Shown: positions 4,028 to 50,933 of the stretch, piece by piece
How the letters are laid out: each line of letters opens with the position of its first letter
Position numbering within the stretch: the stretch's first letter is position 1
From: Balneolaceae bacterium
Lineage (GTDB): Bacteria > Bacteroidota > Rhodothermia > Balneolales > Balneolaceae
Length of the DNA: 64,000 bases
Assembly: GCA_034521495.1 (NCBI GenBank)
Contig: JAXHMK010000004.1
Coordinates: 62,001 to 126,000 of the forward strand
Direction: 5' to 3'
Position numbers and translations under genes: made by a program
The notes under the pieces: generated by a model
What the model saw: only the letters and a program-made list of their open reading frames with translations
Databases searched by the model: none
What the model was told of the DNA's origin: nothing

Positions 4028-5249
4028 TTTCTACTTCCATCAGCCAAACTTTACCTACATCGTTCCAGGTGGTGTCCAGTATAATTTCGCCGGTTACTCC
4101 CTGATACTTACGGATGCTTGTTAGTTCATCCCTTATTCTGACGTGATTCAGACCCGCTTCTTCAATCGATTGTATTAACATTTTCATTCCGTCATATGTA
4201 TGTGCAGCAAAAAGATCTGGCTCAGAACCATATCGCTCCCGATAGTTTTGAACGAACCGGAGGTAGGTGGGGTCTTGACTTTGTGGATTGTAGGGGAATA
4301 TTGCCACAACTCCCTCCGCATTTTCACCGGTACGTTCAAGGAACCGGTCTGTTACCAAACGATCACTGCCGAACACTTTATGATTCATTCCCATATCCCG
4401 CATTCGGTTTACAATTTTTGCAGCATCCTCATCATTTCCCCAGATGAGTACCGCTTCGGAATCGGAGTTTCGAATTTTTTCCAATTGTGGATCAATATCC
4501 TCTGCTCCAGGAACATAATTTAAGTGTATGCGCACGGGATGACCTAACCTGATGGCACTCTCCTGGAAAATTTTTACACCAAGCCTTCCGTAACGGTCAT
4601 TTGCTCTCAATATGGCCACATTCTCCAGTCCCTCTTTTTCAAATATTTGTTTGGCAAGAGCATAATTGTTTTGTCTGTCATCCGAGATGCAACGAACCAT
4701 CCACGGTATACGGGTTTCTGTAAGTGTAGGATCTGTAGAAGTTGTATTCACCATTGGCATCTCTAACTTCAAAACCACCCGAAGCGCAACATGAGAATTA
4801 TTTCCATCAATAGATCCAACTATCGCCCATACTCCTTTATCGTACAGATCGACAATCTCGTTTCCAGTGGAACCCCATAAGCCAACATCGTTTTTTACCA
4901 ATATTTCGTAAGGCAAACCTTGATATCCGCCTTGTGCATTAGCTTCTTCCAGAGCTAACGTAGCTCCTTTTAACATACTCTGGCCGTAATCATCATCATA
5001 GGATCCTTCGAGGGGAGCTACAAAACCGATTTTCACTGTTTTGAGATCTGCAGGAGCGTTACCATCCCTCCCTGGCCCAAGATAAGGCTGCGATTCATCG
5101 AAGAATAACATATAAGGCTCCAGGAATTGGCTATATGGCAACAATTCTTCCGGAGTATCCGCATAATGTTTAATCTCCTGAGCTTGTGTAAACTCACCAT
5201 ACAAAGCAACCAGTAATATGAGTGGAAGGAATGATAACTTTTTCATCAT
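3993..5249 (-). CDS. ABC-type periplasmic substrate-binding protein (LivJ/AmiC-like)
   Basis: The 418-residue protein starts with a signal peptide (MMKKLSFLPLILLVALYGEF, cleavage near TQAQ). The two-lobed type I binding fold is recognisable: TVKIGFVAPLEGSYDDDYGQ, MLKGATLALEEANAQGG, VNTTSTDPTLTETRIPWM, VAILRANDRYGRLG and FAAHTYDGMKM, all typical of LivJ/AmiC-like proteins. About 70 residues precede the first core strand, longer than usual. It follows the RidA-like gene by 12 bp and overlaps the next binding-protein gene. Orphan binding proteins beside propeller proteins are known from PQQ-dependent alcohol dehydrogenase loci, which offers a possible parallel, but no PQQ enzyme is visible here. 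The ligand cannot be read from sequence. Confidence 0.9.
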   Translation of the reverse strand: MMKKLSFLPLILLVALYGEFTQAQEIKHYADTPEELLPYSQFLEPYMLFFDESQPYLGPGRDGNAPADLKTVKIGFVAPLEGSYDDDYGQSMLKGATLALEEANAQGGYQGLPYEILVKNDVGLWGSTGNEIVDLYDKGVWAIVGSIDGNNSHVALRVVLKLEMPMVNTTSTDPTLTETRIPWMVRCISDDRQNNYALAKQIFEKEGLENVAILRANDRYGRLGVKIFQESAIRLGHPVRIHLNYVPGAEDIDPQLEKIRNSDSEAVLIWGNDEDAAKIVNRMRDMGMNHKVFGSDRLVTDRFLERTGENAEGVVAIFPYNPQSQDPTYLRFVQNYRERYGSEPDLFAAHTYDGMKMLIQSIEEAGLNHVRIRDELTSIRKYQGVTGEIILDTTWNDVGKVWLMEVENGKFVVKYPSK

Positions 5250-5261
5250 AACAGTATCTAT

Positions 5262-5840
5262 TTAGACATTTTTACAAACTGCAATCGCCTGAATTTCAAC
5301 CAGAAGTGTATCCCAGCATAGAGTTGCCTGGATGCCAGTACTGGCGGGCAGTGGGTCGAGTTTTAACCAGTTGTAAAACTGAGTTCTGACTTCATTAAAA
5401 TCTTTATAATCGCGTTCTATATCACGTAAATAGCAGGTCGTTCGAATTACATCATGCCAAGACATATTCTCCGAAGCCAACAGTTCCGATATATTTCTGA
5501 ATGTTCTCCAGGTTTGTGCCCTGAAATCACCAATATGTTCGGCGTTCCCCTCTTCATTTACACTTGCCGTACCGGATATTAAAACCACGGAATAATCTCC
5601 AAACTCCATCCGCAGTGCACGAGAAAAAGAAGACGGCCGGGCATAGTTAAAAGCCTCATTTAAAACATTGGGTGCTTGTACAGCTTTTTTTGGAAGAGGA
5701 GGCCGGTCGTCATGAATATCTGGTATCTCAAACTCCAGGTAGTTCTCATTAGCCGATAGAATTCCCAGCTTTACCATCTCTTCTTTTTCACCTGTACTCA
5801 GGTTTAGTTTCTTTTCTGGTAGCCTTATTGCATTATTCAT
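5262..5840 (-). CDS. RidA/YjgF/UK114-family protein with N-terminal extension
   Basis: The C-terminal 130 residues carry the RidA fold: VVLISGTASVNEEG, QTWRTFRNISELL, DVIRTTCYLRDIE and the ending LPASTGIQATLCWDTLLVEIQAIA. Classical RidA enzymes hydrolyse reactive enamine/imine intermediates and use an Arg near the end (CR motif); here that position reads ATLCWDT, so the standard deaminase arginine is apparently missing and activity is uncertain. About 55 extra N-terminal residues precede the fold. There is no signal peptide, so it is probably cytoplasmic although most neighbours are exported. It sits 12 bp upstream of the first binding-protein gene and 75 bp after the propeller gene, inside the same directional block. 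Confidence 0.87.
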   Translation of the reverse strand: MNNAIRLPEKKLNLSTGEKEEMVKLGILSANENYLEFEIPDIHDDRPPLPKKAVQAPNVLNEAFNYARPSSFSRALRMEFGDYSVVLISGTASVNEEGNAEHIGDFRAQTWRTFRNISELLASENMSWHDVIRTTCYLRDIERDYKDFNEVRTQFYNWLKLDPLPASTGIQATLCWDTLLVEIQAIAVCKNV

Positions 5841-5915
5841 GATTCTGTTATTTTTTGGATTATTCTGTTTTTAAAGACTCTTTCTTTCATAAATTTTTTA
5901 GATGCATTTTTAACT

Positions 5916-7100
5916 TTATAATTGCACAATTTCCGAAGCTTTGGAGAAGCTTAAACCGTCTGCTGTGGCAAGCCATATTTCATCTCCATTTACATCCATT
6001 GCCCATATATAATTGTTTGACAATGCATTTGAAGTGGTGAGTTCGCGACTGTTATCGCCTTCTGTTATAATAATTTTTCCCGTTCCGCTTTCATTCTTAT
6101 AAGTGGCCCATCGATGGCCATTAAAAGTGCTGAATCCGTTATCCGTACAGATGTAAATAACGTTATCCTGTGCTTTCACATAATTAATAAAGTTGCTGGC
6201 AAGGCCGCTGTCATGATCGAAATAACTTTGCCAATTTGTACCATCATACCGGCTCAATCCGAAATAGGTACCTACCCAAAGAATATCATTTGCATAAGAA
6301 ACTCCCGTAGTAATATCATGTACAACACCATCATCGGGATAAAGATCAATTTGCATCTGGTGATCGGGATCCCGGTGCACCCTGAAACGGCCTGAATCTT
6401 TGAAATATTCGAGTACTCCACCACCCCAGGCAGCGATATAAATCTTTTGGTCACTATTGGCTACACCATAAGTCCAGGGTTCATGCATCGGGGAATTTTG
6501 CTCATTGAATATTTCCCACTGGCTGGTATACGTATTTAATTTAGATGCTCCTGCAGCCGTTGCAGTCCATACATATTCGCGATCAGTTACGACCGAATAG
6601 ACTACATCATTGGCCAAACCGCTGTTAAACTGGTTAAAGACTTCCATCTCACCTGCCGACCATTTTGTCAGGCCAGACATTGTGGCAATCCAAACTTCGC
6701 CTGTGAGCTCACTAATATCTATATCCAGCACATAGTTATGGGAGAGGCCGTCTTCTGTTGTAATCACTGAAAACCCGCCCTCCTCATATATAGCCAGTCC
6801 TTTATCGGTGCCAACCCAAACTCGGTCCCCATCAATTTGAATGCTGGAAATTTTGTTGGATGGAAGGCCATCTTCTATGTTAAAATTCTTCCATTTTCTG
6901 AAGATTGGTAAGTTCCCGGAATCTTCATCGGGCAGCTCCACTCCGGCTTTACCGGCAGATTCTATCTCAACAAGGCTCTCATCTGCAAAAGCCTCTTTAT
7001 TCATCTTGTTTCCTTTGCTGAAAGCAAAAATGAAAAAGATACCGATGAAAAATAAAGCAGCGAATGCTGTCCAATATGGTTTTCGATGTATGGTTTTCAT
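5916..7100 (-). CDS. Membrane-anchored two-component-regulator-type beta-propeller protein
   Basis: This 394-residue protein has one N-terminal membrane segment (about 8-26, AFAALFFIGIFFIFAF) and then repeating blades of the regulator-propeller (Reg_prop) type, such as NIEDGLPSNKISSIQIDG, VWVGTDKGLAIY, TTEDGLSHNYVLDI and LWVGTYFGLSRYDG. In hybrid two-component sensors of Bacteroidota these blades form the periplasmic ligand-binding half; here no Y_Y_Y domain, kinase or response regulator follows. It would display a propeller on the outer face of the inner membrane. Only 7 bp separate it from the upstream cytochrome gene, so the two are surely cotranscribed. It could act as a docking or sensing partner for the exported redox proteins; that is inference. 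Confidence 0.88.
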   Translation of the reverse strand: MKTIHRKPYWTAFAALFFIGIFFIFAFSKGNKMNKEAFADESLVEIESAGKAGVELPDEDSGNLPIFRKWKNFNIEDGLPSNKISSIQIDGDRVWVGTDKGLAIYEEGGFSVITTEDGLSHNYVLDIDISELTGEVWIATMSGLTKWSAGEMEVFNQFNSGLANDVVYSVVTDREYVWTATAAGASKLNTYTSQWEIFNEQNSPMHEPWTYGVANSDQKIYIAAWGGGVLEYFKDSGRFRVHRDPDHQMQIDLYPDDGVVHDITTGVSYANDILWVGTYFGLSRYDGTNWQSYFDHDSGLASNFINYVKAQDNVIYICTDNGFSTFNGHRWATYKNESGTGKIIITEGDNSRELTTSNALSNNYIWAMDVNGDEIWLATADGLSFSKASEIVQL

Positions 7101-38748: not shown

Positions 38749-41022
38749 TTATGTCAAATAATGATCATAATAGGCAACCTGGCCAAACGGTATATTTTCA
38801 TCATTGGGACTCAGACTTTTGTGAAACCATAGCCGCGTATCATCCGGTTTTTGATTTAGCAATGCATTAACCAACGCGACATTTTGAAATACCCCTCCGC
38901 TAAATGCCAGATCTTTTACACCTGCTTGCCGGCTTATCTGAAAAACCAATTTCCCCAGTGAGTTAAAAAAGCCCCCGGCAATGTATTCGATGTTCCTGCC
39001 CTGCCGGATATCGTCCAGGATACCGATATAGGCCGGCTTCCAGTTTATAATATCATCGCAAATCTCAAATTTATAATCACCGAAATCGAGCCCCTGACTG
39101 TTTCTCGCTCTGCTTTCAAGTTTTATAGCTGCTTCTGCCTCATAACTGTTATATGAACTGATTCCCAAAATAGCTGCAACCGCATCGATCAATCTGCCCA
39201 TCGATGAAGTTTTAAGTTTTGCCGGAACTGAAAGCAGTTTTTGATAATAATCCCACTCTTTTTCATTGAATTGAGCTCGTAATATCGGCTCAGCTTCGGG
39301 AATTTCAGCAAAAACCGAAATGGCAGACAACCGAGGCTCCAGGCTCATTTTATCTCCGGCTAAAACCGGAAAGTAATCCATATGCAGCTTTCTTTTGATC
39401 CCACCCTGATCCTTTTTAAAGATTTCACCTCCCCAAATCTGCCCATCATCTCCATATCCGGTCCCATCCCAGATAAATCCGAGAACTTCTTTGTCCGTTT
39501 TCAGAAGACCATTTTCTGAGAGGACGGCTGCAAAATGAGCTTTATGATGCTGAATCGTATGCAATTTCACATCTGCTTTTTCAGCAACTTTCTCCGCCAA
39601 GGCTCTGCTATGATATGCGGGATGACTATCTGCAAGAACAACCTCAGGTTCAAATGAGTAGAGTGATTGAACATGCTTCAATGTAGCTTGATAAGCAAGT
39701 TGTGAATCGTATGACCCTTGATCTCCCAGATATTGGCTGACAATCAATTTTTCACGGTCAGCAATTGCAAAAGCACCTTTCAGATCTGCCCCTGTCGCAA
39801 GTACCCGTTTATCCATTTTTCTGAATGGATGCGGAGTGTAATTCGGTGACAACCCACGGCTCCTTCTCAAAATAATCCTTTCGCCATTTTTGGCTAACTG
39901 TACAACACTATCGTCTTGGGGTGTCACGATCTCTCTGTCAAATGTCAGAATATAATCGGCAATGGATCCTAAATGATCCAATGCCTGTTGATCATCATAA
40001 ATAATGGGAGACCCGCTCAGATTTGCACTTGTCGCAATCAGCGGGCGGTTCACACCCGAAAGTATCAGCTCAAAAAGCGGGCTGTAGGGAAGTAAAATCC
40101 CGATTGTTTGGAGTCCCGGTGCCACAGCCTCACAGCATAGCCCTGAAGCCGGCTCTGCTTTTCGCAATGCCAGCAAAACCGGTGCATCTGCACTGTTCAG
40201 CGCTTTCTCTTCATTTGGGCCTATCCACGCATCATTCTTCACGGATTTCAGATTCGGATACATCACCGCAAATGGCTTTGAAGGTCTTTTTTTCCTGATC
40301 CGCAACGTTTGTACACTCTTTTCACGGGTAGCATCTGCCAGCAGCAAATACCCTCCGATTCCTTTTACTGCCCATATCTGACCCTCATTTAATGATTGTG
40401 TACAAAACTGTATGACTCTTTCCGGATCACGTTCCACAACCTTCTTCTGTGAATCGTAAAGAGTTATCGGAATAGAACAGGCCGGACATGAATTGGTTTG
40501 GCTGTGCTGTCGAATAGCTCCCGGTTCTTCGTATTCCGCTTGGCAATCCCGGCACATCTCAAGTTCCGCCATCGTGGTATGAGGGCGATCGTATGGCAGT
40601 TTTCGAATGATTGAATATCTGGGGCCGCAATTCAGGCAGGTTGTAAAAGCATATCTGTACCGCCGGTTTGTTTTTTCTTTCATTTCATCCCGGCAGCGAT
40701 CGCAGAGCGCAATATCGGGCGGAAGAAGCGCCCCGGTTTTTTTACCGGTTGAACTCTCCTCAATTTGAAAATCTTCGTATTGTTGATCCGCTATTTTGCG
40801 AATAGTACGGCTGGTAATCAGTGATTGGGGCGGTGCATGCTCAGCCAAATAATCATAATAAGATCGTACCGATTCCTCATCCGCAGTAATAACGATCTCA
40901 AGCCCTTTTCCACTGTTTTTAACCCGGCCTTTCAGCCCTCTTGACCGCGCCGAGTCCAGCACGAACGGCCGAAAACCAACCCCTTGAACAACTCCTTTAA
41001 AATGTAGGTGATAGGTTGGCAT
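38749..41022 (-). CDS. hypF: Carbamoyltransferase HypF
   Basis: The 757-residue protein has the acylphosphatase domain (GVVQGVGFRPFVLDSA), two zinc-finger segments (CDRCRDEMKEKT, CLNCGPRYSII, CRDCQAEYEEPG, CPACSIPI), a YrdC-like domain (QIWAVKGIGGYLLLADATRE and LIATSANLSGSPI) and a Kae1-like C-terminus (HHKAHFAAVLSENG, GFIWDGTGYGDDG). It converts carbamoyl phosphate to a thiocarbamate on HypE for cyanide-ligand synthesis of the NiFe site. It follows hypB by 15 bp on the minus strand and is the last gene of the hydrogenase locus. Confidence 0.96.
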   Translation of the reverse strand: MPTYHLHFKGVVQGVGFRPFVLDSARSRGLKGRVKNSGKGLEIVITADEESVRSYYDYLAEHAPPQSLITSRTIRKIADQQYEDFQIEESSTGKKTGALLPPDIALCDRCRDEMKEKTNRRYRYAFTTCLNCGPRYSIIRKLPYDRPHTTMAELEMCRDCQAEYEEPGAIRQHSQTNSCPACSIPITLYDSQKKVVERDPERVIQFCTQSLNEGQIWAVKGIGGYLLLADATREKSVQTLRIRKKRPSKPFAVMYPNLKSVKNDAWIGPNEEKALNSADAPVLLALRKAEPASGLCCEAVAPGLQTIGILLPYSPLFELILSGVNRPLIATSANLSGSPIIYDDQQALDHLGSIADYILTFDREIVTPQDDSVVQLAKNGERIILRRSRGLSPNYTPHPFRKMDKRVLATGADLKGAFAIADREKLIVSQYLGDQGSYDSQLAYQATLKHVQSLYSFEPEVVLADSHPAYHSRALAEKVAEKADVKLHTIQHHKAHFAAVLSENGLLKTDKEVLGFIWDGTGYGDDGQIWGGEIFKKDQGGIKRKLHMDYFPVLAGDKMSLEPRLSAISVFAEIPEAEPILRAQFNEKEWDYYQKLLSVPAKLKTSSMGRLIDAVAAILGISSYNSYEAEAAIKLESRARNSQGLDFGDYKFEICDDIINWKPAYIGILDDIRQGRNIEYIAGGFFNSLGKLVFQISRQAGVKDLAFSGGVFQNVALVNALLNQKPDDTRLWFHKSLSPNDENIPFGQVAYYDHYLT

Positions 41023-41037: not shown

Positions 41038-41919
41038 TCATCCGTTTCTCAACTCGGCAGAGCGCTCCCTGAGCCAGTCGTACCAGGAATCGAGACCATC
41101 ACCGGTAGTGCAGCTTACCTGGAAAAAGATCAGGTTCGGATTGATTTTTTTTGCGTTTTCAATCAGTTTGTCGCAATCAAACGGGACATAGGGAAGCAGA
41201 TCCATTTTGTTAATGATACAAACTCCTGACGTGTGGAACATATCGGGATACTTGAGTGGTTTATCGTCTCCCTCGGTTACGCTGATAATCACAACACGTT
41301 CATTTTCGCCCAAATCAAACATTGAGGGACATACCAGGTTTCCTACATTTTCGATAAACAGCAGGCTATTCTCTGCCGGCTTCAACTCCTGGATTGCATG
41401 CAGCACCATATGTGCATCCAGGTGGCAACCTTTTCCTGTGTTGATTTGAACCGCTTTTGACCCGGTCATTTCAATTCGATCCGCATCCATGGATGTTTGC
41501 TGATCTCCCTCTATCACTCCAAACGAGAGTTCTCCTTTCAGGTCTGTGAGCGTGCGCTCCAGTAACATTGTTTTTCCTGAACCGGGTGAACTCACCAAAT
41601 TGATGGCCAGGATACCTTTCGCATCTATATAACCTCGGTTTCTGGCAGCCAATAGTGCATTTTCGTGCAAAATATCTTTTTCGAGATGGATCATTCTGCT
41701 CCCGGTGTTCTGTTGGCCCATCTCGTTATTGGTGTGTGAGTGTGAATGATCGTGACCCTCTCGCGACTCATGAGCATGGTGATGGTGACCGTGTGCTGTT
41801 TCATGAGCATGCTGATGAGCGTGTGCATGCATATGCCCTTTGTTACTCCCGTGGGAATGGTCGTGATTCTCAGTTACAATGTGGGCACTGTCGGTGCCGC
41901 ATCCGCATGTTATACACAT
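41038..41919 (-). CDS. hypB: Hydrogenase nickel incorporation GTPase HypB, His-rich
   Basis: Residues 1-8 are MCITCGCG, a high-affinity nickel CxxCxCG site, followed by a His-rich stretch (about 20 His in residues 19-70, including HETAHGHHHHAHES) that stores nickel. The GTPase domain has the P-loop SSPGSGKT, a GDQQTSMDADRI switch, GCHLDAHMV and the metal loop with GNLVCPS, plus INKMDLLPYV (NKxD). It delivers nickel to HoxH with HypA. It follows hypA by 10 bp. Confidence 0.96.
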   Translation of the reverse strand: MCITCGCGTDSAHIVTENHDHSHGSNKGHMHAHAHQHAHETAHGHHHHAHESREGHDHSHSHTNNEMGQQNTGSRMIHLEKDILHENALLAARNRGYIDAKGILAINLVSSPGSGKTMLLERTLTDLKGELSFGVIEGDQQTSMDADRIEMTGSKAVQINTGKGCHLDAHMVLHAIQELKPAENSLLFIENVGNLVCPSMFDLGENERVVIISVTEGDDKPLKYPDMFHTSGVCIINKMDLLPYVPFDCDKLIENAKKINPNLIFFQVSCTTGDGLDSWYDWLRERSAELRNG

Positions 41920-41929
41920 AATTTTACCT

Positions 41930-42292
41930 CTACTTTTCAGATTTTAATCTCTCTTCAATCCGTATCGTTTTGATGTTCATCTCCTTTCCTTCTATAATTT
42001 CGGAGAAATAACATCCACATTCCGGACAAGAGTCATAAAGTGCATTCATTTCAAAGAGTGTATTGCACTCGCTACACCTACCCATGCCCTGAATGTAGTT
42101 TATTTTCAACTCTGCCCTTTCAAGCACACTGTCTCGAATTCCATGTTTCCAGGCAAACTCAAATGCCGCCGGTTCGATTGTACTCAGTTTGCCGATATCC
42201 AGCTCAACGGCAGAAACCGATTCTGCGTCAGCTTTGAACACTTCTTTTTCCACTATCTCGACAATATTAAGTACGATCGAAAGTTCATGCAC
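41930..42292 (-). CDS. hypA: Hydrogenase nickel chaperone HypA
   Basis: The 120-residue protein begins MHELSIVLNIVEIV (the MHE nickel site) and has the zinc module CSECNTLFEMNALYDSCPEC with two CxxC pairs. The expected role is to hand nickel to HypB. Its start overlaps the end of the small membrane protein by 8 bp, so the two are tightly linked. Confidence 0.95.
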   Translation of the reverse strand: MHELSIVLNIVEIVEKEVFKADAESVSAVELDIGKLSTIEPAAFEFAWKHGIRDSVLERAELKINYIQGMGRCSECNTLFEMNALYDSCPECGCYFSEIIEGKEMNIKTIRIEERLKSEK

Positions 42293-42512
42293 GTGCTTTA
42301 GCCCTCTTTTTCATTCTAAATATCAGCCATGTACAGCTGGTTGCAATCAAGAATACAACAGTGCCCAATATGATTGCATGCATCGGTTCAGTTAGATAGT
42401 GCAGCAATGAGTGTCCGGCAGTTTCTCCATGACCCGAATGTGCAAACAGTGATGCCTGATTTACGATGATTATCAGTATGGCTGTCAAAAATATTTTACG
42501 AAAGTAGTTCAT
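42285..42512 (-). CDS. Small His-containing membrane protein next to hypA (75 aa)
   Basis: The protein has a signal peptide-like start (MNYFRKIFLTAILIIIVNQA, cleavage near FAHS), a His-rich segment HSGHGETAGHSLLHYLTEPM, a membrane helix (about 48-65) and a basic tail KKRAKARA. The His cluster faces the periplasm and would suit nickel or other metal binding. It overlaps hypA by 8 bp. I do not recognise the family. The IS5 scar lies immediately upstream, so its original promoter or partner gene may be lost. Confidence 0.75.
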   Translation of the reverse strand: MNYFRKIFLTAILIIIVNQASLFAHSGHGETAGHSLLHYLTEPMHAIILGTVVFLIATSCTWLIFRMKKRAKARA

Positions 42513-42540
42513 GATTTAATTTTTTTGTGTTGATATATCA

Positions 42541-43069
42541 ATGGTTGGTCTTTATCGGTTTCATCGAGCAACTCCTCAAGGACCTGCGAATCGTGGACGG
42601 ACGCATCGCTGACGCTATAGGCCCCAATGAGTTTGTATTTGTTATCGACTTTCAGGTGGTCCTTATACCCATAATAGGAGACCCCATTTTTCTTTGTCCA
42701 GCGCGCATCGGTATCTTTCTGGCGTTTCTTGTTGGGGGTCTCTTCCCATTCGCAAGGGGGCTGACCGGCTTTAATCGCCTTGTTTTCCTCGCGTGTGTTT
42801 CGCTGACGGGGGACTTCTACAAAACTGGCATCCATGAGTTGCCCCTGATGGGCAATCAAGCCATGGCTGGCTAACAACCCGGCGAACACCTCAAAGAGTT
42901 CCTTCTCCAAACCAGAACTGGTGAGCCGCTCCCGGAAATCCCAAATCGTTTTCTCGTCAGGAACCTTATCATCAAGGCTCAACTCTAAAAACCGGCAAAA
43001 GCTCAGCCGATCCAGGATTTGATATTCGGTTTGCTGGTCACTGAGGTTATAATAGCGCTGGAGGATCAA
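42541..43069 (-). mobile_element. IS5-family transposase fragment
   Basis: The open frame reads LQRYYNLSDQQTEYQILDRL, SFCRFLELSLDDKVPDEKTI, WDFRERLTSSGLEKELFEVF and, after GQLMDASFVEVPRQRNTREE, NGVSYYGYKDHLKVDNKYKL, which is the central part of an IS5/IS1182-type DDE transposase. The first 60 or so residues and the C-terminal part with the catalytic Glu are absent, and no terminal repeats are seen. It sits between hoxW and the small membrane protein gene, in the same orientation as both, splitting the hox and hypABF halves. Confidence 0.85.
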
Positions 43070-43092: not shown

Positions 43093-43569
43093 TCAAAACA
43101 GTTCTTCTGTTTCGATTTCTTTAATTTGAGCTTGTTTATATAGTTCGGACGACCGAAATAAATCCAGTGCTCTTTGTAAGTGATTTGACGCTTTGTCGCT
43201 CAACGGTTCACCAAGTTCCCATCTGTACCCTTTAATAGGCAACACATAGGCCTCCGGCGTTTTCCGATAAAGCGTCTCACACAGATAAAGTACCGCTTCC
43301 GGGCTCTGCAGATGAGATGAAAAGTAGTAGGAACGTGCAGGCTCACATTTTTTTAATGCATAACCTTTCGGAATCAGTTCTTCCGTCGCATCCACAAAAA
43401 GCACCCTTTCATATTTACTAATTATGTCGGCATCTTCTACTTGCAGCTGATAGCGATACTCCAGGTCAAATCTGCCGGGATCTTTTCCCTCAATATCATT
43501 CAAAAAAAGCCATCCCAATGCGTCATCTCCGCGCGAACCATTTCCGATACCGATCAATAACGTACGCAT
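43093..43569 (-). CDS. hoxW: Hydrogenase maturation protease HoxW
   Basis: The 158-residue protein belongs to the HyaD/HycI family: LLIGIGNGSRGDDALGWLFL carries the first metal-binding Asp, and VLFVDATEEL the second. It removes the C-terminal peptide of HoxH once nickel is in place. The gene is 3 bp after the HoxH stop, confirming its partner. The C-terminal part (QAQIKEIETEELF) is short. Confidence 0.93.
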   Translation of the reverse strand: MRTLLIGIGNGSRGDDALGWLFLNDIEGKDPGRFDLEYRYQLQVEDADIISKYERVLFVDATEELIPKGYALKKCEPARSYYFSSHLQSPEAVLYLCETLYRKTPEAYVLPIKGYRWELGEPLSDKASNHLQRALDLFRSSELYKQAQIKEIETEELF

Positions 43570-45042: not shown

Positions 45043-46320
45043 TTAATCATACTTGAATTCTGAATAGAGTATGGAATAGTTCTCATTCCATAACAGGTTT
45101 TTCACGGCTTTCCAGATGTGTTGTGCATCCGGCGGACATCCCGGAATGAAATAGTCAATTTTTACAACTTCCCGGCATTCATAAATTCTGTCCAGCATTT
45201 TGGGCAGGTGTTTGTGGTAGGGTATCGTTGTATTTCCCTGCTCATTTGTTACGCAATTCAGAAAAGCCTCTTCCAGGCACTCTCCCAGTGGAATGGTATT
45301 ACGCAGGGATGGCAGCCCACCCCAAATAGCGCATTCTCCCACAGCTACCAGCAGATCACATTGTTCCCGGAAAGTTCTCAGGGTTTCAACATTCTCTTCG
45401 TTACAAACCGAGCCTTCAATAATTCCTACATCACAGCGCTGAGTAAATTTTTTGAAATCTGTCAGAGGTGATTTGTCAAAGGTAATCAGTTCAACGAGAT
45501 CGAGTATTTCTGTATCCACATCCAGCATTGACATATGGCACCCAAAACATCCGGCCAGTGATACAGTGGCAACTCTCTTTTTCTCAACATTACTGAGATC
45601 GATGTTGTTATCAGATTTTACGGGCTTTACGTAGTCCGGCCTGATCGAATCTTCATCAAATTTACGTTCACCAAAAGGTTTACCAACGCTTTCTCCACGT
45701 ACAATAATTGCGCCGGTCGGGCAGATGTTCATTGCCTGTATCGCCTGATCCCGGGTCAGTTTTTTCTCCTCTTCGTAATCAACTCCTACATGTGTTTCAT
45801 TGCCGCGATTTTGATAGCTGAATACCTTTTTCCCATCGTCATTCTCTACTTCAACCACGCATCGCAAACATTTGATACAGCGATTGTGCTCCATCACCAT
45901 CCGTTTAGCACCGTAATCGATCAACCGGTTTTTAAACAGGTGGGGAAAGCGGCTGATGGCTATACCTAATTCATACCCCATATGCTGGAGATCACAATTT
46001 CCACTCTTTTCACAGGATGGGCATATGTGGTTGCCCTCTGCAAACATCATCTCAACGATGCCTTTTCGCATATCTTTCAGTTCTGCACTGTTCACCTCCA
46101 CAGCCAACCCCTCTCTCACTTTTTCAGTACATGCGGGAGTAAATTTTCCGTTTATTTTGCAAGTGCATGTCCGGCACGTTCCCAGCGGTGGATCTATATT
46201 CTCAAAATAACAGAGTGATGGGATAAAGAATCCATTTTCAGTTGCAACATCTACCAGGTTTCTTCCTTCATCAGCAAGGATATTTCTGCCATCAATCGTA
46301 ATATTTACATGTTTACCCAT
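45043..46320 (-). CDS. Fused HoxU-HoxY: diaphorase FeS subunit plus hydrogenase small subunit
   Basis: Residues 1-240 are HoxU: [2Fe-2S] Cys37, Cys49, Cys52 and Cys64, the His98/Cys100/Cys103/Cys109 set, and a ferredoxin-like CIKCLRCVVEV with NICPTGAI. Residues 250-425 are HoxY, the [NiFe] small subunit: VATVSLAGCFGCHMSMLDVD, VAVGECAIWGGLPSLRN and YFIPGCPPDA hold the proximal cluster Cys. The linker between is about 15 residues (NNIDLSNVEKK). In described group 3d enzymes HoxU and HoxY are separate; a fusion would fix their ratio and electron path. Both halves are complete, so a lost stop or indel between two former genes is the main alternative. It is 15 bp upstream of hoxH and 23 bp from hoxF. 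Confidence 0.93.
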   Translation of the reverse strand: MGKHVNITIDGRNILADEGRNLVDVATENGFFIPSLCYFENIDPPLGTCRTCTCKINGKFTPACTEKVREGLAVEVNSAELKDMRKGIVEMMFAEGNHICPSCEKSGNCDLQHMGYELGIAISRFPHLFKNRLIDYGAKRMVMEHNRCIKCLRCVVEVENDDGKKVFSYQNRGNETHVGVDYEEEKKLTRDQAIQAMNICPTGAIIVRGESVGKPFGERKFDEDSIRPDYVKPVKSDNNIDLSNVEKKRVATVSLAGCFGCHMSMLDVDTEILDLVELITFDKSPLTDFKKFTQRCDVGIIEGSVCNEENVETLRTFREQCDLLVAVGECAIWGGLPSLRNTIPLGECLEEAFLNCVTNEQGNTTIPYHKHLPKMLDRIYECREVVKIDYFIPGCPPDAQHIWKAVKNLLWNENYSILYSEFKYD

Positions 46321-48503: not shown

Positions 48504-49559
48504 TTAGCAAATGCGAGGCAATAACTCGCCCGTTGCCTGGGCCAACACTCTCCTGCCTCCGATAGCACTGTGGAGTACAACCTTACCCGGATGATCCTCT
48601 GTAACTTTGCCGATCGCGACTGCACTTGAACCATATTCCCATTTTCGTATCAGTTCAATACACTCTTCTGCGATTTCTGCATCCACAATAGCGACAAATA
48701 GTCCCTCATTGGCAACATAAAGAGGGTCCAAACCTAACATTTCGCATGCACCGGCCACTTCATCCTCTACCGGCAGCACCTTTTCATTTAGCTGAATGCC
48801 CTTACCTGTTTGTTCTGCAATTTCATTCAATACGTTTGCAACGCCACCCCGGGTCGGATCGCGCATCAGGTGGATTTGGCTGCCAAAAGTATCGATCAGT
48901 TCAAGACAAATCCGGTGTAACGGACGGGTATCGCTATTTAATTTTGTCTCAAACTCCAATCCGTTTCGTTTGCTCATGATCGTGATACCATGCCGAGCCA
49001 TGGATCCGCTTAGCAATACTGCATCACCCTTTTTGATCCGGTTCATTCCCATTTTCGACTTCGAGTGCATCTCTCCTATACCTGTTGTATTGATAAATAT
49101 CTGATCCCCTTTTCCTTTCTCCACGACTTTGGTATCACCCGTAATAATTTTGACATCTGCTTCTTCACATGCATCTCGAATGGAGTGTAGAATCTGCTGA
49201 AAAAGTTTCATCTCCAATCCCTCTTCAAGAATAAATGAGAGTGACAAATATTGTGGCTTAGCTCCGCTTACTGCAAGATCATTGACCGTTCCATTCACTG
49301 CCAGATCGCCAATAGTTCCTCCCGGAAAAATTAACGGAGATACCACAAATGTATCCGTACTGAACGCTGTCTTTCCATTCAGTTGAATAGTTGCCGCATC
49401 TCCCTGTTCACGCAGCCATTCATTATCCAGCAGAGAAAACACGCCGCTTTTCAGTAAATTTTGGGTCAGTTTCCCACCTCCTCCGTGTCCAATAGTAATG
49501 GAATCAAACTCATTGACAGGAGCAGGACAGTTCAGCTCTACTTTTACAGATTTATTCAT
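48504..49559 (-). CDS. hypE: Hydrogenase maturation protein HypE
   Basis: The 351-residue PurM-like protein has ITIGHGGGGKLTQNLLKSGV, FSTDTFVVSPLIFPGGTIGD, the ATP-binding region and RDPTRGGVANVLNEIAEQTG. It ends LLPRIC, the C-terminal Cys that accepts the thiocarbamate from HypF and becomes the cyanide donor. The conserved ending supports a functional enzyme. It is 5 bp downstream of hypD. Confidence 0.96.
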   Translation of the reverse strand: MNKSVKVELNCPAPVNEFDSITIGHGGGGKLTQNLLKSGVFSLLDNEWLREQGDAATIQLNGKTAFSTDTFVVSPLIFPGGTIGDLAVNGTVNDLAVSGAKPQYLSLSFILEEGLEMKLFQQILHSIRDACEEADVKIITGDTKVVEKGKGDQIFINTTGIGEMHSKSKMGMNRIKKGDAVLLSGSMARHGITIMSKRNGLEFETKLNSDTRPLHRICLELIDTFGSQIHLMRDPTRGGVANVLNEIAEQTGKGIQLNEKVLPVEDEVAGACEMLGLDPLYVANEGLFVAIVDAEIAEECIELIRKWEYGSSAVAIGKVTEDHPGKVVLHSAIGGRRVLAQATGELLPRIC

Positions 49560-49564
49560 AGACT

Positions 49565-50662
49565 TTACTCTGTTGATTCCTGGGTTGCATAATTATAATA
49601 AGCTGCGCAAGCACCCTCACTGCTAACCATTGGTGCTCCAAGCGGTTTTTCAGGTGTACACCCTTTGCCAAAATGGGGACACTCATGTGGTTTTATTTTC
49701 CCTTTCATTACATCCCCCGACAGACATCCGCTATCTTCAGAAATTCTCTCTTTCAGTGGCCCAAATTTAAGTGTGGCATCATAATCCCTATATTTTTGAG
49801 CCAAAAAAAGGCCACTCATTGGTATTTCACCGATTCCACGCCACTCCCGGTCACGATATTCAAACACGGATTTCACCAGGTCAACAGCTTGCCGGTTACC
49901 GTCTTTTCCCACGACTCTTTTATACTGATTTTCCAGCCTGTATTCTCCATTCTCAAGCTGAGATACCACCATGTAAATTCCTTCAAGCAGATCCACCGGT
50001 TCAAAACCTGTAACAACAATGGGCATTTTCCATTTTTCAACCAGTGGCACGTACTCACTCAAACCCATCACCGTGCAAACATGTCCGGCAGCCAGAAAAC
50101 CATCCACTTTTGTATCCGGATCCGACATGATTGCTTCCATCGCCGGCGGTACCATTACGTGGGCACTCAAAACAGTGTAGTTTTTCAATTTTTGTCTGTA
50201 CGCCTGCTCCACAGATAGCGCATTGGCAGGAGCCGTTGTTTCAAAGCCTACCGCAAAAAAGACGACCTCCCTGTTCGGGTTTTGTCGTGCAATAGAGACC
50301 GCTTCAAGCGGAGAATAGAGAATTCTGATATCGCCACCCTTGGCACGGGCTTGCTGCAGGCTGAGTGTGCTTCCGGGAACCCGGAGCATATCTCCATATG
50401 AGCATAAAATCACATCATGTTCCAATGCAAGTTCTACAGCTTTATCAATCAATGAAACGGGTGTGACACATACCGGGCACCCGGGTCCATGAATCATTCG
50501 GATTTGGTCGGGCAACATCTGAAGCAATCCATGGCGGACAAGGCCGTGGGTTTGTCCGCCACAAACTTCCATTATATTCCATGGCTTCGTTACACACTTT
50601 CTGATCTTATTAAGAAGTGTTCGTACAATTTCTTCGTCACGGAATTCTGACAGGTATTTCAT
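49565..50662 (-). CDS. hypD: Hydrogenase formation protein HypD
   Basis: The 365-residue iron-sulfur protein has the Cys34-motif MEVCGGQTHGLVRHGL, HGPGCPVCVTPVSLI, FFAVGFETTAPANALSVE and a C-terminal cysteine-rich end (CPHFGKGCTPEKPLGAP) that forms the [4Fe-4S] site. It works with HypC to build the Fe(CN)2CO group. It follows hypC by 1 bp. Confidence 0.96.
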   Translation of the reverse strand: MKYLSEFRDEEIVRTLLNKIRKCVTKPWNIMEVCGGQTHGLVRHGLLQMLPDQIRMIHGPGCPVCVTPVSLIDKAVELALEHDVILCSYGDMLRVPGSTLSLQQARAKGGDIRILYSPLEAVSIARQNPNREVVFFAVGFETTAPANALSVEQAYRQKLKNYTVLSAHVMVPPAMEAIMSDPDTKVDGFLAAGHVCTVMGLSEYVPLVEKWKMPIVVTGFEPVDLLEGIYMVVSQLENGEYRLENQYKRVVGKDGNRQAVDLVKSVFEYRDREWRGIGEIPMSGLFLAQKYRDYDATLKFGPLKERISEDSGCLSGDVMKGKIKPHECPHFGKGCTPEKPLGAPMVSSEGACAAYYNYATQESTE

Positions 50663-50663
50663 A

Positions 50664-50933
50664 TTACTCTCCGTAACCGCCCGGCTCAGGGTTTAACTCA
50701 TCCAGCTCACCCATTTCCTTAAGATACCTCAGGGTTTCGATGGCTTCGTTCTCATCAACCTTGCTTAATGCCACTCCAACATGTACAAGTACATAATCAT
50801 CTACCCCAATTTCGGGCAAAAAGCAAAAATTCACTTCCCTGATGATACCACCGAAGGAGACTTTACCGGGCCGGTTTGTAGGATCTTCGGTAGTTTGCAG
50901 TTCAACAACTTTACCCGGGATGGCAAGACACAT
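50664..50933 (-). CDS. hypC: Hydrogenase chaperone HypC
   Basis: The 89-residue protein begins MCLAIPGKVVEL with the essential Cys2 and has the OB-like core with VDDYVLVHVGVALSKVDENE. It carries the Fe(CN)2CO precursor to HoxH. It is the first gene of hypCDE; an acidic 14-residue tail follows the conserved domain. Confidence 0.95.
   Translation of the reverse strand: MCLAIPGKVVELQTTEDPTNRPGKVSFGGIIREVNFCFLPEIGVDDYVLVHVGVALSKVDENEAIETLRYLKEMGELDELNPEPGGYGE

Follow-up and report, generated by a model that had tools for sequence, protein, structure and literature searches.

A natural HoxU-HoxY gene fusion in a probable group 3d [NiFe] hydrogenase of Bacteroidota and relatives

A single open reading frame in a contig of a Balneolaceae bacterium appears to encode two hydrogenase subunits, HoxU and HoxY, as one protein. 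We asked whether this fusion is real, to which enzyme the fused chain belongs, how it arose and whether tying the subunits together matters. The window that we analyzed is a stretch of 64,000 nucleotides (contig JAXHMK010000004.1, positions 62,001 to 126,000). On its reverse strand, hoxUY is one stop-free frame that opens with ATG and encodes 425 amino acids (Table 1). It is present as a single copy in its genome, where that copy has no internal stop, and the adjoining hoxH encodes the only [NiFe] large subunit of the genome. Pfam placed the domains Fer2_4, NADH-G_4Fe-4S_3 and Fer4_Nqo3 at residues 3 to 205 and the hydrogenase small-subunit domain Oxidored_q6 at residues 258 to 408. The best solved relatives of the first half were HydA of Acetomicrobium mobile and HoxU of Hydrogenophilus (5xf9_B). 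For the second half it was Hydrogenophilus HoxY (5xf9_C), which matched residues 247 to 425 and thus reached the very C terminus. Since domains and solved relatives cover both halves, HoxU and HoxY are each complete. The open frame, the Pfam domains and the solved relatives therefore agree with the initial annotation, which had read the chain as a complete HoxU, a short linker and a complete HoxY.

Table 1. Hydrogenase genes and parts of hoxUY in the window, with the basis for each assignment.
Feature	Positions	Strand	Basis or description
hypF	38749..41022	-	Read from sequence; gene order in relatives and C. necator
hypB, histidine-rich N terminus	41038..41919	-	Read from sequence; gene order in relatives and C. 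necator
hypA	41930..42292	-	Read from sequence; same place in relatives and C. necator
hoxW, HoxH C-terminal maturation protease	43093..43569	-	TIGR00072; 3' of hoxH in nearly all relatives
hoxH, [NiFe] large subunit, ligands C62 C65 C453 C456	43573..45027	-	Domain, ligand and solved-relative matches
hoxUY, fused HoxU-HoxY, 425 aa	45043..46320	-	Single ORF; Pfam/NCBIfam domains of both subunits; stop-free in 80 orthologous contigs
HoxY half, aa 247-425	45043..45582	-	Ligands invariant in 61 orthologues; 5xf9_C match, E 4.7e-49
Linker, aa 223-246, hydrophilic, unconserved	45583..45654	-	Column entropy; low pLDDT; mostly non-synonymous changes
HoxU half, aa 1-222	45655..46320	-	Ligand columns invariant in 61 orthologues; 5xf9_F match to predicted model, Z 21.2
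hoxEF (Cupriavidus-type HoxF), 588 aa	46344..48110	-	NuoE-like N-terminal domain and FMN/NAD domain
hypE	48504..49559	-	Read from sequence; kept beside hoxEF in close relatives
hypD	49565..50662	-	Read from sequence; kept beside hoxEF in close relatives
hypC	50664..50933	-	Read from sequence; kept beside hoxEF in close relatives

Both halves retain their iron-sulfur ligands, which we assigned to clusters by homology (for the HoxU half, to HoxU/Nqo3). The HoxU half holds ligands for one [2Fe-2S] cluster (C37, C49, C52 and C64), one His-Cys3 [4Fe-4S] cluster (H98, C100, C103 and C109) and one further [4Fe-4S] cluster (C148, C151, C154 and C200), and the HoxY half holds those of the proximal [4Fe-4S] cluster (C258, C261, C330 and C395). 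All 16 ligand residues of these four clusters were invariant in 61 fused orthologues. With only one CxxCxxC...C motif in the HoxU half, we considered the loss of a second ferredoxin-type cluster and rejected it, as Hydrogenophilus HoxU has the same single site.

We predicted the structure of the chain with AlphaFold2, leaving four rows from plasmid records out of the input. When split relatives were added, the model contained two well-folded domains (pLDDT 81.5, pTM 0.61) with low pLDDT at residues 231 to 238, between the domains; without them, from fused sequences only, the model was poor (pLDDT 67). The first half of the model matched Hydrogenophilus HoxU (5xf9_F; Z 21.2, 221 residues, 3.4 Å, residues 4 to 230). 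The second half matched the [NiFe] small subunits 5odc_E (Z 20.0, 169 residues, 4.9 Å) and 7t2r_E (Z 18.8, 178 residues, 5.2 Å), in both cases over residues 245 to 424. None of the structure matches listed was to a solved chain covering both halves, and at a pTM of 0.61 the model does not fix how the HoxU half packs on the HoxY half.

The gene lies in an operon with the order hoxEF-hoxUY-hoxH-hoxW, with intergenic spacings of 23, 15 and 3 nt and hyp genes flanking both sides. HoxF has the ligands of the N3 [4Fe-4S] cluster (C492, C495, C498 and C538), and its NuoE-like domain retains one of the four usual [2Fe-2S] cysteines, the other three being lost. A loss of [2Fe-2S] cysteines from the NuoE-like domain has likewise been described for R. 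eutropha HoxF (PMC3189943). The long histidine-rich N terminus of HypB suggests a putative role in nickel storage. We detected no RuBisCO large subunit in the genome, and H2-driven Calvin-cycle growth of this bacterium is therefore unlikely. A transposase fragment of 186 residues (DUF772, DDE_Tnp_1; positions 42509 to 43069, same strand) lies between hoxW and hypA.

We assign HoxUY, with a probability of about 0.87, to a cytoplasmic NAD-linked [NiFe] hydrogenase of the Cupriavidus/Hydrogenophilus soluble type (group 3d), in which it would be a subunit that covalently tethers the modules. HoxH carries two CxxC motifs (C62/C65 and C453/C456), and its best solved match is Hydrogenophilus HoxH (E 9.8e-157). 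The small subunit has one [4Fe-4S] site and no Tat signal; the HoxY half has no signal peptide of its own because its N terminus is joined to HoxU. A diaphorase consisting of HoxF, with its FMN/NAD domain, and HoxU is encoded in the same operon. The initial annotation had stated that HoxU and HoxY are separate in described group 3d enzymes, which is true of Cupriavidus necator, Hydrogenophilus (5xf9_B and 5xf9_C) and Acaryochloris, whereas here they form one chain; membership in group 3d rests on the large subunit, and separate HoxU and HoxY chains are a trait of the described HoxFUYH enzymes rather than a criterion. HydDB files the Phaeodactylibacter xiamenensis hydrogenase as group 3d (PMC5037454), and Phaeodactylibacter bins carry the fusion; members of the fused clade are thus probably already filed in 3d by way of their large subunits.

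Among known systems, HoxFUYH-HoxI2 of C. necator (group 3d) shares with the window the gene order F-U-Y-H-W followed by hypA-hypB-hypF, a HoxF whose NuoE-like domain is without its [2Fe-2S] site, and 44.7% identity over HoxU plus HoxY. It differs in that its hoxU and hoxY overlap by 4 nt as separate genes in different reading frames, and in having, 3' of hoxW, a gene for a cyclic-nucleotide-binding-domain protein, which we take to be HoxI and which has no counterpart in the window. HoxFUYH of Hydrogenophilus thermoluteolus (PDB 5xf9) is the best solved match for HoxF, HoxY and HoxH, and the aligned FeS motifs agree, but its HoxU and HoxY are the separate chains B and C. The cyanobacterial HoxEFUYH, a type also found in Bacteroidota, has the same subunit set but keeps HoxE, HoxU and HoxY separate and occupies a distant branch of the tree. 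Cases are known in nature in which an [FeFe] hydrogenase is fused to diaphorase modules (PMC2216082). One of them, the hydrogenase polyprotein of the ciliate Nyctotherus ovalis, resembles the present case in joining diaphorase modules to a hydrogenase, but these are 24-kDa and 51-kDa (NuoE, NuoF) modules on an [FeFe] enzyme instead of HoxU on an [NiFe] small subunit (PMC2216082). We found no described HoxU-HoxY fusion in the open-licence literature, which is weak evidence of absence. For a Cyclobacteriaceae bin, a recent MAG paper gives hoxF, hoxU, hoxY and hoxH as separate genes, in passages that mention no fusion (PMC12942990). The fused form is a conserved variation on a well-known enzyme. 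Annotation pipelines that count hoxU and hoxY separately may misread the fused gene.

The initial annotation had sought the junction between positions 45540 and 45640; that span overlaps the actual junction only in part (Table 1). The linker is flexible, lysine-rich and about 24 residues long in the window. Its length lies between 20 and 27 residues in 60 of the 61 fused orthologues (median, 22), among which it has no conserved sequence motif. Mean column entropy in this set was 3.08 bits for the linker, compared with 0.99 for the HoxU half and 0.77 for the HoxY half. Between the window and its closest relative, the linker differed by 7 synonymous and 12 non-synonymous codon changes, against 83 and 17 in the HoxU half and 68 and 20 in the HoxY half (relative L048). 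A fused gene in a Lewinella bin (L118, positions 4643 to 5977) has a 48-residue linker that is largely an Asp-Asn-Gly repeat.

To trace the origin of the fusion we used two trees. In the HoxU plus HoxY tree (184 rows), the 85 fused rows formed one clade (SH-aLRT 99), a set that was found with a fused query and so carries some built-in sampling bias. The 79 HoxH proteins of fused operons likewise formed one clade in the HoxH tree, with support of 100. On both trees the fused/split label needs one change, and several independent fusions are unsupported. This bears out the earlier suggestion that the fusion marks this hydrogenase clade: the fused sequence cleanly marks one group 3d clade in Bacteroidota and relatives. 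The nearest split relatives are the Cupriavidus enzyme (on a long branch of uncertain position), an acidobacterial group and one family in the order of the window; split relatives within that order still have a stop between hoxU and hoxY. In several of the nearest split relatives, hoxU and hoxY share a reading frame. In one of these (L157), hoxU ends in ...KYDRRPIGSDIEEKK and a stop, followed by 12 nt and then MSKPVIATASLAGC, all in one frame, with hoxY opening as MSKPVIAT. Reading past this stop would produce a 19-residue linker, against the fused median of 22. Furthermore, an ATG lies no more than ten columns ahead of K247 in 17 of 61 fused genes, and in most of these it coincides with the position of the former hoxY start. 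The simplest account, drawn from sequence comparison, is that the fusion arose once, when an ancestor whose hoxU and hoxY lay in one frame and a few codons apart would have lost the hoxU stop.

The C terminus of HoxH in the window reads DPCLSCATQ, with Gln at the processing site. Gln occupies this site in the window and in 45 of the 77 fused-clade loci checked, and His occupies it in all split relatives where we located the motif; on the HoxH tree, two changes account for this His/Gln label.

If the enzyme works like its homologues in C. necator and H. thermoluteolus, H2 would be split at the [NiFe] site of HoxH and the electrons would pass through the HoxY cluster, the HoxU clusters and the HoxF cluster to FMN and NAD+, in a reversible manner. 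In the fused enzyme the step from HoxY to HoxU would take place inside one chain, and the contact between the diaphorase and hydrogenase modules would become covalent. Such a tether would fix a 1:1 ratio and keep the two modules from drifting apart. From the one-chain gene it is fair to infer that the halves are tied together in the working enzyme, the basic chemistry of which is probably unaltered.

The most uncertain part of our explanation is the claim that the fusion confers a functional benefit, and we put its chances at about even. In its favor, the Rhodococcus opacus enzyme dissociates easily into its two moieties in vitro. Against it, the R. eutropha (Cupriavidus) tetramer holds together without a fusion (PMC3189943), so that a tether is unnecessary for function. 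The strongest alternative, which we rate at somewhat below even odds, is a neutral accident, in which a single loss of the stop left a product that could still assemble and was passed on without advantage. This account differs from the preferred reading only in the benefit. It is favored by a linker that is unconserved and looks unconstrained in all but length, and by described relatives that function with separate subunits. On the other side, the fused state is unreversed in the 85 fused rows, which span several orders, and the linker has kept to its narrow length range. Neither point proves a benefit, the former because reversal needs a new stop and a new start together. If the tether does help, the fusion would be a natural answer to the practical problem of module dissociation in this type of enzyme. 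Poor stability restricts the use of the C. necator enzyme in NADH recycling (PMC12809855). Given this instability and the dissociation seen in R. opacus (PMC3189943), the natural linker offers a ready template for asking whether a tether helps.

We regard it as unlikely that the fused enzymes differ in function from other soluble hydrogenases and form a class of their own, with a non-dissociating complex and an altered catalytic bias or oxygen handling. The cause would then be the tether, perhaps together with the Gln-for-His change in HoxH, which concerns part of the clade, and the absent HoxI.

Less probable still, and clearly so, is that the subunits are separate in the working enzyme, either because the whole chain is cut in the linker or because an internal start yields HoxY as well. 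The ATG near the old hoxY start in 17 of 61 orthologues would suit the internal start, and a flexible, lysine-rich linker would suit post-translational cleavage, but the linker has no conserved motif. The window gene contains no ATG, GTG or TTG across codons 198 to 262, and the next possible start, codon 263, lies past the ligands C258 and C261. A whole HoxY thus cannot start internally in this gene.

There is very little chance that the enzyme belongs outside group 3d, as a bifurcating or an F420/heterodisulfide-linked hydrogenase. The best NCBIfam model for the large subunit is VhuA, but its score is far below the cut-off (406 of 800 bits). The electron-bifurcating NiFe-HydABCSL of A. mobile (PDB 7t2r; PMC8880783) is a close solved relative, with the HoxU half resembling the N terminus of HydA and the HoxY half resembling HydS. 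Its HydA, however, is long, with additional C-terminal clusters, and is apart from HydS, and it has a separate HydC. The HoxU half ends at about residue 222, has three clusters and lacks the extra C-terminal part of HydA, and the operon contains no HydC, Mvh or Hdr gene. Hydrogenophilus HoxFUYH remains the best solved match for HoxH, HoxY and HoxF, and the HydDB placement of the P. xiamenensis enzyme, from a genus whose bins carry the fusion, also argues for group 3d. We rejected a bifurcating or Vhu-type enzyme on three grounds, namely the length of HydA, the gene content of the operon and the score cut-offs.

The same stop-free frame crosses the junction in 80 of the 80 best named genome contigs, four of them from the cultured isolates Ginsengibacter hankyongi BR5-29, Robiginitalea marina 2V75, Winogradskyella vincentii 2Y89 and W. 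alexanderae D23. A sequencing or assembly error that deleted a stop between two genes is thereby refuted in practice and has a negligible probability. The chain is a real gene fusion, common to a large group of Bacteroidota and relatives. Fused contigs came from Balneolales, Chitinophagaceae, Cyclobacteriaceae/Flammeovirgaceae, Saprospiraceae/Lewinellaceae, Phaeodactylibacter and Flavobacteriaceae. Of 395 genomes sampled evenly from the phylum to which the window belongs, 7 had the fused form, counting the window's own genome, and one (G182) had a split enzyme of the same type; the remaining matching genomes carried the more distant split cyanobacterial type or single subunits only.

The fused operon was also seen in single bins labelled Planctomycetaceae (L099), Lysobacterales (L110), Polyangia (L119, on a 1.5-Mb contig) and Acidobacteria (L126). 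We sampled the phyla to which these bins are assigned (235 genomes for Polyangia, 247 for Acidobacteria, 398 for Lysobacterales and 199 for Planctomycetaceae) and found no fused gene beyond the seed genomes; the plasmid collection had no fused copy either. The four occurrences suggest rare transfer out of Bacteroidota or mislabelled contigs.

Some genomes contain two hydrogenases, one of the Cupriavidus type (fused or split) and one of the split cyanobacterial type. These cases comprise L058, L059, L066, L071 and a family of the window's order (f3, L011 to L017, the one named above among the nearest split relatives), and in four contigs the two operons stand back to back with at most about 1.3 kb between them. 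In two Winogradskyella isolates (L123 and L125), hoxEF-hoxUY is duplicated in tandem, and the extra copy, without hoxH, precedes a complete hoxEF-hoxUY-hoxH-hoxW operon. The extra HoxUY copy of L123 retains all cluster ligands.
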